Positions 45,592-49,530 of a stretch of DNA of 64,000 bases are shown here, in pieces. The translations under genes and the position numbers were made by a program. The stretch spans positions 1 to 64,000 of the forward strand of contig NZ_FWZT01000006.1 in the NCBI RefSeq assembly GCF_900177345.1, written 5' to 3'. The DNA is from Pseudobacteriovorax antillogorgiicola. Lineage in GTDB: Bacteria > Bdellovibrionota_B > Oligoflexia > Oligoflexales > Oligoflexaceae. The notes under the pieces were generated by a model. The model saw only the letters and a program-made list of their open reading frames with translations, was not told the origin of the DNA and made no database searches. Each line of letters starts with the position of its first letter. The stretch's first letter is position 1.

Positions 45592-46485
45592 TTAGTTTGA
45601 CCAAATGTGTTTCGCAAGGTTTATAAAGTCTCTGATGTATCCCACGCTCTCATCATCAGTGCGAAAGCCAATATGGTTTGTTTTGTATATCCCATCCCTT
45701 CCAATTCTGAGTGGACGGAGCATGGCCTTGCTCTGGTATTCTCGAACCAACCAATCAGGCAGCACAGCGATACCTCGCCCGGCAGATACCATTTGGACAA
45801 TCATCTCTGTGGTCTCGAAGGTCTTATAGCTTCCAGGGCTTATATCAGCGGGTAAAAGGAATTTGGTGAAAATATCGAGCCTCTCCTTCGGGATGGGGTA
45901 TGTGATCAGAGTTTCATCTCTGAGATCCTCAGGCTCAATAAACGCCTTCTCATCAAGGCTGTGATCGTGCCCAACGACGGCCACAAGCTCATAGGGAAAA
46001 ACAGCTTCATAACTCAAGCCTTCTCTGAAATACGGATCTGGTGTGATGATCATATCGATATCATGATCAATAAGCGCTCCTACGGCTCCAAACTTAAACT
46101 TTTGGCGAATATCCAGGTCCACCGTGGGCCAGTCTCGCAAAAACTGAGGTAGAAGGGATGATAGCCATTGATAGCAGGGGTAGCACTCCATCCCAATGCG
46201 TAGATAGCCCTTGATGCGTCCATCTCCTGATTGTTTAAGTTCAGCTTCAGCCTTCTGGAGCATAGGTAAGATCTTTTTCGCCATGCCGAGAATCATTTGC
46301 CCCTGATCCGTTAAGACAAGGCCGCGACCCTTTTTTCTCCAAATGGAGCACTCCAACTGGTCTTCGAGCTTGGCAATGGAGTGACTCAAGGCTGATTGTG
46401 AAAGTTTCAAGGCTCTCGCAACGCGGGTCAAGGTACCCAACTGGTTCAGGCTATGGATAATTTCAAGGTGAGTGCGTTCTATCAT
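45592..46485 (-). CDS. LysR-type regulator, MetR-like
   Basis: A 297-residue LysR-family regulator, counted from the ATG at 46485; in-frame ATGs upstream reach into the divergent promoter. The helix-turn-helix is TLTRVARALKLSQSALSHSIAKLEDQLECSIWRKKGRGLVLT. The remaining part is the usual effector-binding fold with GYLRIGMECYPCYQWLSSLL, as in MetR, which senses homocysteine. It faces metE across 117 bases that include a TGAA-N5-TTCA site. MetR activates metE in other bacteria, so the same role is inferred from sequence and the divergent arrangement. GC and codons look like the neighbours. Confidence 0.88.
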   Translation of the reverse strand: MIERTHLEIIHSLNQLGTLTRVARALKLSQSALSHSIAKLEDQLECSIWRKKGRGLVLTDQGQMILGMAKKILPMLQKAEAELKQSGDGRIKGYLRIGMECYPCYQWLSSLLPQFLRDWPTVDLDIRQKFKFGAVGALIDHDIDMIITPDPYFREGLSYEAVFPYELVAVVGHDHSLDEKAFIEPEDLRDETLITYPIPKERLDIFTKFLLPADISPGSYKTFETTEMIVQMVSAGRGIAVLPDWLVREYQSKAMLRPLRIGRDGIYKTNHIGFRTDDESVGYIRDFINLAKHIWSN

Positions 46486-46495
46486 TCTAAACCTA

Positions 46496-46508
46496 TGAAA
46501 TGAATTCA
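46496..46508. promoter_or_regulatory. MetR-type operator
   Basis: TGAA-ATGAA-TTCA fits the MetR half-site rule TGAA-N5-TTCA and lies between the divergent metR-like start (46485) and metE start (46603). The usual central T is G here. The inner ATGAATTCAT is also palindromic. Confidence 0.6.
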
Positions 46509-46602
46509 TAAAACTATGACTATATATCACTTTTACTCATGAAAATAAATGCTTAGTGTTTGCGTAGGATTCGAACCGATTAAATTTCTGAAGAGGTAAC
46601 TT

Positions 46603-48936
46603 ATGATTCAAACAGCGAACCTAGGCTTTCCCCGAATGGGTTTAGATCGAGAATTGAAAAAGGCAACTGAAAGATACTGGAAAGGTAAAATAAGTCGAGA
46701 AGACCTATTACTCCAAGCAAGTGAACTCCGGTCTCGACATTGGCAGCTGCAAAAAGAAGCTGGCATCGATATGATCCCTTCCAATGATTTTTCTCTCTAT
46801 GATCACGTTCTGGATACTGTCGCTATGGTGGGCGCAATACCCGACCGCTTTCATTCCCTCGCTGAAGGCGACAAGCTAGAACTCTATTTTGCGATGGCTC
46901 GTGGCAGTCAAAAGGATGGAGTTGATGTGGTTGCAATGGAAATGACCAAATGGTTCGACACCAACTATCACTATATTGTTCCAGAATTTAAGAAAACGAC
47001 AGCATTTTCACTCTCGTCGTTGAAGGTTGTCGAAGAGTTTAAGGAAGCCTTGAGCCTTGGTATCAAAACAAGGCCAGTATTGCTTTCTCCAGCTTCGTTT
47101 TTAATGTTAGGAAAAGCCTATGATGATCATGCACCGTTAGATCTTCTCGAAAAATTGCTACCGATCTACAAATCTGTTTTGGATATGCTAGCCGATGCGG
47201 GTGCTGAATGGGTGCAGTTAGATGAGCCTTGCTTAGGGCTCGACCTGGAGCCTGAAGAGATTGATGCCATCACGCGGGCTCAACAATACCTCGCTGCTCA
47301 TAGCTCGATCAAGATCATGCTGACTAGCTACTTCGCGCCTTTGAAAGAAAACCTATGTCAGGTATTTAGCTTGCCAGTAGCAGGCCTTCATTTTGATCTT
47401 ATCCGTGGTTACGAAGATTGGAAAAGCGTTATAGATACTCCATTTCATGGCAAAGTTGTGTCTTTGGGGTTGATCGATGGGAGGAATATTTGGCGGGCTG
47501 ATCTTGAAGATGTACTTTCAATTGTCCAACAAGCTGTGCAGAAATTCGGTCCCGAGAAAGTCGTCGTTGCTCCAAGCTGCTCCATGCTCCATTGTCCAAT
47601 GGACTTAGATAGTGAGCCTGAATTGGATCATGAGATCCGATCATGGCTCGCGTTCGCCAAGCAGAAGCTTGCTGAGCTTTCTTTGGTCGCTGCTATTGCT
47701 AATCATGGGAGGGAGCAGTATGCGGGGGCTCTGAGTGAGTTTGCTAGGATCGGTGAAAGTAGAAAGTCTTCGACACGGATTCATGACTTAAAAGTTAAGC
47801 AACGTGCAAATGCTGTTCAACAATTAGATTATCATCGCATCCCTTTCCGCGAGCGAGTTGTTTTACAAGAAGAGTCCTTGTCTCTGCCGCTTTTACCTAC
47901 AACAAGCATCGGCTCGTTTCCTCAGACATCTAGTATTCGTCAGATGCGCGCTCGCTATAAAAAAGGCGAACTCAGCAGGGAACGCTATGAAGAATTCTTA
48001 GCTGAAGAAACCAAGCAGGCGATTCGTTGGCAAGAAAGTGCTGGCATTGATGTCTTAGTCCACGGTGAGTTTGAACGCAATGATATGGTGGAATATTTTG
48101 GTGAGCAGCTCAATGGTTTTGCCTTCACAAAGAATGGCTGGGTTCAAAGCTACGGATCTCGCTGCGTGAAGCCTCCCATCATTTATGGTGATGTCTCCAG
48201 GCCACATAGTATGACAGTTCGGTGGTCGAGTTATGCCCAAGGCCTCACGGTAAAACCAGTAAAAGGCATGCTCACAGGCCCTGTGACCATTCTGCAGTGG
48301 TCTTTTGTTCGAAACGATCAAGAGCGAAAGGAAACTTGTAAGCAAATCGCTTTAGCGATTCGCGATGAAGTTAAAGATTTAGAGAACAATCACATTCAGG
48401 TTATCCAAATCGATGAACCGGCCTTTCGGGAGGGCCTGCCCCTACGTAAGGCAGAACACAAGGATTACCTTGATTGGGCGAGCCAGTGCTTCCGACTCTC
48501 GTCTTCAGGGGTGAAGAGCACTACCCAGATCCATACGCATATGTGTTATTCAGAGTTCAATGACATCATGGACGCAATTGCCAGCCTGGACGCCGATGTG
48601 ATCTCCATCGAAACCTCTCGTTCTGCGATGGAACTACTAGATGCATTCGTCAGTTTTCAGTACCCCAATCAGATTGGTCCTGGTGTCTATGATATCCACA
48701 GTCCCCGGATTCCCAGTCAGGCTGAAATGACCAAGCTGCTCAGCAAGGCTCTTGAGTATCTTGATCATCGGCAGGTTTGGGTGAACCCTGATTGTGGTCT
48801 TAAAACACGGAACTGGGATGAGGTGAAAGCTGCATTGACAAACATGGTGAGTTCCGCACGAGAACTTCGGCAGGCTCTATCAAGCCAAGCCAAAGGCCAA
48901 CCTTTAAAACAGGCTGAGCGAGTTCAAACTCATTAG
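46603..48936 (+). CDS. metE: cobalamin-independent methionine synthase
   Basis: A 777-residue MetE, the zinc enzyme that transfers the methyl group from methyl-tetrahydropteroyl-polyglutamate to homocysteine. The N-terminal domain opens NLGFPRMGLDRELKKATERYWKGKIS. The C-terminal catalytic domain has TTSIGSFPQTSSIR and the zinc ligands His646 and Cys648 (THMCYSEF) and Cys731 (NPDCGLKTR). The length matches the usual 750-780 residues. GAGGT precedes the ATG. Divergent from a MetR-like gene with an operator between. It needs no vitamin B12, while a B12-riboswitch stands a little downstream for another gene. No methionine-synthase metH or methylene-THF reductase gene is in the window. Confidence 0.97.
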   Translation: MIQTANLGFPRMGLDRELKKATERYWKGKISREDLLLQASELRSRHWQLQKEAGIDMIPSNDFSLYDHVLDTVAMVGAIPDRFHSLAEGDKLELYFAMARGSQKDGVDVVAMEMTKWFDTNYHYIVPEFKKTTAFSLSSLKVVEEFKEALSLGIKTRPVLLSPASFLMLGKAYDDHAPLDLLEKLLPIYKSVLDMLADAGAEWVQLDEPCLGLDLEPEEIDAITRAQQYLAAHSSIKIMLTSYFAPLKENLCQVFSLPVAGLHFDLIRGYEDWKSVIDTPFHGKVVSLGLIDGRNIWRADLEDVLSIVQQAVQKFGPEKVVVAPSCSMLHCPMDLDSEPELDHEIRSWLAFAKQKLAELSLVAAIANHGREQYAGALSEFARIGESRKSSTRIHDLKVKQRANAVQQLDYHRIPFRERVVLQEESLSLPLLPTTSIGSFPQTSSIRQMRARYKKGELSRERYEEFLAEETKQAIRWQESAGIDVLVHGEFERNDMVEYFGEQLNGFAFTKNGWVQSYGSRCVKPPIIYGDVSRPHSMTVRWSSYAQGLTVKPVKGMLTGPVTILQWSFVRNDQERKETCKQIALAIRDEVKDLENNHIQVIQIDEPAFREGLPLRKAEHKDYLDWASQCFRLSSSGVKSTTQIHTHMCYSEFNDIMDAIASLDADVISIETSRSAMELLDAFVSFQYPNQIGPGVYDIHSPRIPSQAEMTKLLSKALEYLDHRQVWVNPDCGLKTRNWDEVKAALTNMVSSARELRQALSSQAKGQPLKQAERVQTH

Positions 48937-48984: not shown

Positions 48985-49377
48985 CTAACCTTCTATCTGC
49001 CGGGTAATAGCCGTTGGTTTGCCAAAATCATCCAGTGCCACCATTGAAAAGTGACCAGAAGTACAAAGCACCCGATCGCCAGTCCTTAAATCTTCACCAA
49101 TGAGATCTACGGATACTTTAAGTGACGTGTTTCCTACATCTTGCACTTGAGCTACAATTTCGACCAATTGGCCATTTTTGATTGGATTTTTAAAGTCTGT
49201 CTTATCGGAGGAAACCGTCACAATGTTCCGTCGCGCATAGCGGGATGCGACGATAAAGGCAGCTTTATCCATCAAAGATAAGGCTTCTCCACCGAACAAA
49301 GTGCCATAATGGTTTGTTTGTGAGGGAAACACCATCTCATACATGGTCAGGGTTCTAAGATTCTGCTCTGCTTTCAT
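48985..49377 (-). CDS. acyl-CoA thioesterase, hotdog fold (YciA-like)
   Basis: A 130-residue thioesterase. The start at 49377 is set by GGAGG five bases upstream; an upstream in-frame start would lie inside the riboswitch. The hotdog helix is NHYGTLFGGEALSLMDKAAFIVASRYA, with catalytic-type Asp near DKAAF, then VTVSSDKTDFKNPIKNGQLVEIVAQV. YciA-type enzymes cleave acyl-CoAs of medium to long chain, acetyl- and propionyl-CoA among others. It is preceded by a cobalamin riboswitch, so its expression is expected to fall when B12 is plentiful. A possible role is to relieve acyl-CoA build-up when B12-dependent mutase is idle. Enzyme class is clear; the role in B12 limitation is inference. Confidence 0.88.
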   Translation of the reverse strand: MKAEQNLRTLTMYEMVFPSQTNHYGTLFGGEALSLMDKAAFIVASRYARRNIVTVSSDKTDFKNPIKNGQLVEIVAQVQDVGNTSLKVSVDLIGEDLRTGDRVLCTSGHFSMVALDDFGKPTAITRQIEG

Positions 49378-49404
49378 AAATACCTCCTCGGGTGTAGATT
49401 GCTT

Positions 49405-49530
49405 TGACAAGGATCTGGCTTCACCAAACATTTGGCTTCACAGTTGCGGGACAGCACCGGATTCGCACCGGGTTTCACTTATCCAAAGCCATAAAAGTGC
49501 ATTCAGTGAATAGCACGGTGGGCAGATTAA
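49405..49530 (-). promoter_or_regulatory. cobalamin riboswitch
   Basis: On the minus strand the core reads GTGAAACCCGGTGCGAATCCG, then GTGCTGTCCCGCAACTGTGA, and GTGAAGCCAGATCC follows. CCGGTG-GAATCC-CTG-CCCGCAACTGT is the diagnostic B12-box core and GAAGCCAGA the usual 3' segment. It stands between the end of the FAD oxidase gene (49540) and the thioesterase start (49377), in the same direction, so it controls the thioesterase. The ribosome site GGAGG at 49383-49387 is at the end of the leader, as expected if it is sequestered when ligand binds. Confidence 0.92.

Follow-up and report, generated by a model that had tools for sequence, protein, structure and literature searches.

Closest described systems

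Cobalamin riboswitches are known to control genes of B12 synthesis, B12 uptake and B12-independent isozymes, and repression is the general rule among those that have been characterised. MetE, MesD and NrdAB do the work of B12 enzymes without needing B12. The cobalamin categories of Sun et al. 2013 comprise synthesis, B12 transport, cobalt transport and isozymes, and the main text of that paper mentions neither a thioesterase nor a hydrolase (PMC3766115). Our search of the open-access literature turned up no paper that places a B12 riboswitch on a thioesterase; subscription papers and RegPrecise lay outside that search, and prior notice is not excluded.

We analysed a window of 64,000 nucleotides from Pseudobacteriovorax antillogorgiicola (positions 1 to 64,000 of contig NZ_FWZT01000006.1), in which a cobalamin riboswitch lies ahead of a gene for a hotdog acyl-CoA thioesterase (TE). 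The element shares the B12 box, the P3–P6 core, L5 and L13 with the Rfam cobalamin family (RF00174, RF01482 and RF01689), as well as the position in a 5′ leader and a Shine–Dalgarno (SD) sequence inside L13. It differs from that family in its target, which is a thioesterase rather than a synthesis, transport or isozyme gene, and in a score just under the curated cut-offs. Like the B12-independent isozymes MetE and NrdAB, TE is expected to be repressed by B12 and often belongs to a common operon with them, but it replaces no B12 enzyme and would only relieve a block. The riboswitch itself appears to be a plain member of its class, whereas its target and the breadth of the pairing appear to be new.

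The riboswitch upstream of TE

The first-pass annotation had placed a cobalamin riboswitch ahead of the thioesterase gene without naming a strand; this was borne out, with both on the minus strand. The element, a short form of ~126 nt (49379..49504), is matched by RF01482 and RF00174. A cmscan run of 401 nt with permissive filters yielded a full-length match to the AdoCbl model RF01482 (E = 2.3e-8; 49.9 bits, with the gathering score set at 50), and a search of the whole 7.3-Mb genome with RF00174 gave 27.8 bits (gathering score 31.5, E = 1e-4). The Rfam scan of the window at default gathering scores listed no riboswitch, because 49.9 bits falls below the threshold of 50. The covariance search proposed in the annotation therefore detects the element under permissive settings and comes back empty under default ones. 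Its description as 'unmistakable' is slightly too strong given that the default scan lists nothing. Going by the E-value and the positional conservation, the match is well above chance. At the orthologous locus of another Pseudobacteriovorax genome (G001/L065), the RF00174 match upstream of TE reaches 32.2 bits and exceeds the cut-off.

The individual elements can be followed along the minus strand. In the closing stem, GGCUUUGGAU (49481..49490) is the 5′ strand and pairs with CAAAGC at 49401-49406. The P5/L5 hairpin CCCGGUGCGAAUCCGG (49457..49472) was assigned from the Rfam alignment, and GGTG, A and TCC within it are invariant in an alignment of eight related riboswitches. The B12 box core CCGCAACTGT (49440..49449), read directly from the sequence, is invariant in the same eight. 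It is followed by the P6 hairpin GCCAAAUGUUUGG (49424..49436) and the conserved J6/3 segment AGCCAGATCC (49411..49420), of which AGCCAGATC is again invariant in all eight. The P13/L13 element CACCCGAGGAGG (49383..49394) holds the SD sequence GAGGAGG (49383-49389); its CCCGAGGAGG is kept in seven of the eight. All three conserved segments are present: the B12 box CCGCAACTGT, J6/3 AGCCAGATCC and L5 GGTGCGAATCC. We checked the stems sequence by sequence because in the MAFFT alignment of the eight riboswitches the closing stem had its 5′ strand misplaced. In these per-sequence duplex folds, the closing stem re-forms from differing sequences in 11 riboswitches of related genomes, without a formal covariation test. 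The free-energy fold of the leader was no better than that of shuffled sequences (z = −0.06) and was uninformative.

Start site and proposed switch

The SD sequence GAGGAGG is found inside the L13 hairpin (CACC-CGAGGA-GGU), 5 nt ahead of the ATG at 49377, which is the likely start of TE. A longer open reading frame starting at 49431 was rejected: its ATG falls inside the P6 hairpin of the aptamer and is probably spurious. The placement of the SD within L13 suggests a translational OFF switch, with the ligand and the direction of control inferred from sequence. If cobalamin is abundant, the aptamer would fold and L5 would contact L13. Because the SD lies within L13, this ligand-bound kissing-loop contact, itself inferred, would hide it, and no terminator would be needed. 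The short riboswitch would thereby repress translation of the thioesterase, which would be produced once cobalamin becomes scarce. Whether AdoCbl or MeCbl is preferred, the sequence cannot tell. The pair of B12 riboswitches in Mycobacterium tuberculosis has been described as translational OFF switches (PMC11260477).

Other leaders vary this layout. In Obscuribacterales (L083-L101), the SD in L13 drives a short upstream open reading frame (uORF), and a terminator-like hairpin with a T-run follows ahead of TE; this arrangement resembles the uORF interplay described for the M. tuberculosis B12 riboswitches (PMC11260477). In the second Pseudobacteriovorax genome (G001/L065), the L13 SD starts a 24-codon ORF, the stop codon of which overlaps (ATGA) the start of a fused Cys_rich_CWC-thioesterase gene.

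The thioesterase

TE (48985..49377, minus strand) encodes a single-hotdog protein of 130 residues that matches the 4HBT family (Pfam PF03061) at 63 bits, with Asp37 as the catalytic residue. Its AlphaFold model has a pLDDT of 93. The best structural match of this model is TTHB207 from Thermus thermophilus (PDB 2eis; E = 2.6e-13, 46% identity), followed by acyl-CoA hydrolases of Neisseria, Staphylococcus and Bacillus and then by ACOT7 and HI0827. Asp37 aligns on the active-site aspartate column of the C-terminal domain of ACOT7, and we take it to be the counterpart of Asp44 in HI0827. The latter residue has been named as catalytic (PMC2698920). Judged by the predicted model, the criteria for a 4HBT acyl-CoA thioesterase, a hotdog domain and an active-site aspartate, are met, with activity and substrate being inferred. 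TTHB207 (2EIS) is a structural-genomics entry, and the literature mention that we found refers to it only as an acyl-CoA thioesterase structure. The likeness to TE goes beyond the fold, as the TE loci of Thermus also carry a riboswitch and lie beside metE and nrdB.

TE shares the hotdog fold and the position of the active-site aspartate with YciA/HI0827 and ACOT7, but forms a separate subfamily. The earlier label 'YciA-like' is thus right by fold and does not extend to equivalence: against the YciA equivalog model NF007970, TE scores 50.3 bits and misses the cut-off of 162. A fully supported branch in a phylogenetic tree divides the TE subfamily from 14 YciA-like paralogues sampled in related genomes, and no riboswitch was present at the five loci of these paralogues that were scanned.

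Two variations in domain structure were seen. The double-hotdog TE proteins of Sphingomonas and Brevundimonas keep the aspartate solely in the first domain. In a close relative (L065 3791-4390; L008), an in-frame fusion places a Cys_rich_CWC domain (PF14375) at the N-terminus of TE.

Distribution and operon context of the riboswitch–TE pairing

Scanning 84,980 species genomes yielded 80 loci with TE relatives. A cobalamin riboswitch lies upstream on the same strand at 50 of these, in at least eight phyla, which include Bdellovibrionota, Myxococcota, Cyanobacteriota/Melainabacteria, Acidobacteriota, Deinococcota, Eremiobacterota, Pseudomonadota and Bacteroidota. Forty-five of the riboswitches exceed the Rfam cut-off; the remaining five (L120, L121, L135, L137 and L144) were assigned by the B12-box pattern alone. 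The riboswitch directly precedes TE at 23 loci, and no riboswitch was found downstream of TE or on the opposite strand at the TE-relative loci scanned. In the three Silvanigrella-group genomes G043, G045 and G049, a riboswitch of the RF01689 type immediately precedes a TE of ~45% identity. TE is an apparently new, conserved regulon member. One locus labelled 'Bipolaricaulota' (L140) looks like mis-binned Thermus DNA.

The pairing recurs in several operon arrangements. The order riboswitch-nrdA-nrdB-TE occurs in Nannocystis, Plesiocystis and Acidobacteriota, and is extended by metE in Eremiobacterota. Riboswitch-TE-metE is found at further loci, riboswitch-TE-metE-nrdB-nrdA in Thermus, riboswitch-metE-TE in Sphingomonas, Belliella and Sediminibacterium, and riboswitch-mesX-mesD-TE in Brevundimonas. 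Because metE, mesD and nrdAB are B12-independent, TE regularly belongs to the low-B12 regulon, and the mark of a backup regulon, a cobalamin riboswitch that recurs upstream across lineages, is present (50/80 loci). The acyl-CoA mutase itself was not identified as a neighbour at any riboswitch–TE locus examined.

Two Silvanigrella-group loci (L014 and L015) depart from this pattern: the riboswitch and TE are followed by nrdJ, which encodes the B12-dependent ribonucleotide reductase, and not by B12-independent nrdAB. This order counts against the backup-regulon explanation.

Within the window, metE (46603..48936, plus strand; TIGR01371, 1104 bits) is a convergent neighbour of TE, with 48 nt between the stop codons, and is not under the TE riboswitch. 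Divergent from metE lies a gene for a MetR-like LysR regulator (45592..46530, minus strand). MetR is its best NCBIfam model, at 191.6 bits and under the cut-off of 382. In the scan of the window, metE had no riboswitch of its own over the Rfam cut-off. The annotation had also described the neighbouring MetE as having its own MetR-type control, and this reading holds.

Possible link to propionyl-CoA and methylmalonyl-CoA

A mutase of the methylmalonyl-CoA mutase (MCM) family is encoded in each of the 39 distinct TE genomes tested (G056, a duplicate of G001, was left out). In the window's own class this co-occurrence is uninformative, because the mutase is near universal there (51/56 genomes). 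Since it is too common in that class to discriminate, a sample of Cyanobacteriota was tested instead. A TE homologue was present in 15 of 146 genomes, all 15 of them among the 18 with a mutase (naive Fisher p = 8e-18, uncorrected for phylogeny). Six of the 15 matches are weaker and may be other 4HBT proteins; the nine strong ones alone give p = 8e-10. The methylcitrate-cycle gene prpD is absent from 33 of 34 genomes with the riboswitch–TE pairing, whereas among the 11 TE genomes that lack the riboswitch, four show a match to prpD or a prpD-like gene (three of them below the model cut-off; naive p = 0.01, again without correction for phylogeny).

Within the window's class, cobalamin riboswitches also occur on genes tied to propionyl-CoA. 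In the Silvanigrella-group genome G044 (L146 1175-2644), one lies on the gene for 2-methylcitrate synthase (prpC), divergent from a PrpD-like gene; the TE of this genome has no riboswitch. In G006 (L145 2101-5823) and G005 (L153 4434-8319), a cobalamin riboswitch heads an operon of mmsA, an acyl-CoA dehydrogenase gene and mmsB. MmsA is methylmalonate-semialdehyde dehydrogenase, and both genomes lack MCM and TE. By analogy, the operon is reminiscent of a B12-independent route for propionate or valine.

TE-like genes were also found in prpB/C/D operons without a riboswitch, in Polaromonas (L123 3995-8359 and L130) and in one Eremiobacterota genome (L107 3956-7189). These relatives have Ser or Gly in place of the catalytic Asp and may therefore not be ordinary hydrolases; going by this substitution, they are possibly non-catalytic CoA-binding proteins.

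Proposed function and competing explanations

The pairing of riboswitch and TE recurs, usually beside B12-free backup enzymes, and TE therefore probably frees CoA when a B12-dependent enzyme stalls. We consider it the probable explanation that a cobalamin riboswitch represses the thioesterase of a low-B12 backup regulon, which would relieve the cell of the CoA esters of a stalled acyl-CoA mutase. TE would then be the partner of MetE, the backup for MetH, and of NrdAB, the backup for NrdJ, and would serve the acyl-CoA mutase, the third of the large B12-dependent enzymes. Without its cofactor, this mutase would let CoA esters of the propionyl or methylmalonyl type accumulate, and TE would hydrolyse them, so that CoA is set free and the acid can be disposed of. 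That a member of this regulon hydrolyses propionyl- or methylmalonyl-CoA is an inference; there are no ligand or enzyme data. The idea of the first-pass annotation that TE acts as a relief valve, releasing these esters at low B12, fits the genomic data, and its support is indirect: the mutase is present in every TE genome tested, prpD is absent in 33 of 34 riboswitch–TE genomes, operons are shared with B12-independent isozymes, and in sister lineages prpC and mmsA operons carry cobalamin riboswitches. The substrate of TE remains inferred. A wider proposal, on which we find the case evenly balanced, is that many phyla have an unrecognised third low-B12 arm, a riboswitch-repressed TE acting as relief valve for stalled MCM, and that lineages without it use a riboswitch-controlled methylcitrate synthase or mmsA operon instead.

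The most serious competitor, which we regard as unlikely without dismissing it, accepts that TE truly belongs to the low-B12 regulon and assigns it to the metE/nrdAB branch or to general acyl-CoA clean-up rather than to the mutase. Sharing of operons with nrdAB, metE and mesXD is indeed far commoner than with propionate genes, and YciA-type enzymes have a broad substrate range, HI0827 being titled a broad specificity thioesterase. However, at the 23 loci where the riboswitch directly precedes TE there is often no metE or nrdAB near, and the mutase is present in every TE genome tested, with prpD absent from nearly all that have the riboswitch. To our knowledge, moreover, neither the MetE nor the ribonucleotide reductase reaction has an acyl-CoA intermediate. 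The presence of a fused IcmF-type mutase in addition to MCM, in the window genome and in many other riboswitch–TE genomes, raises a less probable option: a functional riboswitch with a TE that recycles other B12-linked CoA esters, such as the branched C4-C5 esters of that mutase. The riboswitches of sister lineages point elsewhere, as methylcitrate synthase and MmsA are both linked to propionyl-CoA.

The remaining objections concern the RNA. Scores just below both Rfam gathering cut-offs would fit a degenerate, non-functional riboswitch, but the element has an intact core, differing sequences maintain the closing stem in related riboswitches and the orthologue exceeds the cut-off; an ON switch would run counter to characterised cobalamin riboswitches, which generally repress, as in the translational OFF pair of M. 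tuberculosis (PMC11260477). We consider either alternative very improbable. The 48 nt between the convergent stop codons also raise the possibility that transcription past TE into the 3′ end of metE provides a B12-controlled antisense RNA gated by the riboswitch. This would give an OFF switch the wrong sign, with antisense to metE at low B12, and the convergent metE is not conserved, metE being co-directional in other genomes; we rejected antisense control of metE on both grounds and see next to no chance for it.

If TE is a mutase-linked target of the riboswitch, its conservation would reveal how bacteria that have no methylcitrate cycle handle a methylmalonyl-CoA mutase deprived of cofactor, the equivalent in bacteria of methylmalonic aciduria. 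For a large group of proteins annotated as 'acyl-CoA thioesterase', TTHB207 included, this would point to a likely function and to the condition under which they are used. The proposed role is open to testing in culturable hosts.

Further cobalamin riboswitches were seen in Pseudobacteriovorax. On another contig of the window genome (C8, L148 2004-5258), one lies ~250 nt before the gene for a 967-residue 7TMR-DISM sensor histidine kinase, with an SD in L13 and no obvious ATG behind it. In G001 (L147 1185-11500), a cobalamin riboswitch lies ahead of lipoprotein-like and TonB-receptor-like genes; the genes for the two subunits of methylmalonyl-CoA mutase and a MeaB-like gene follow in the same direction.
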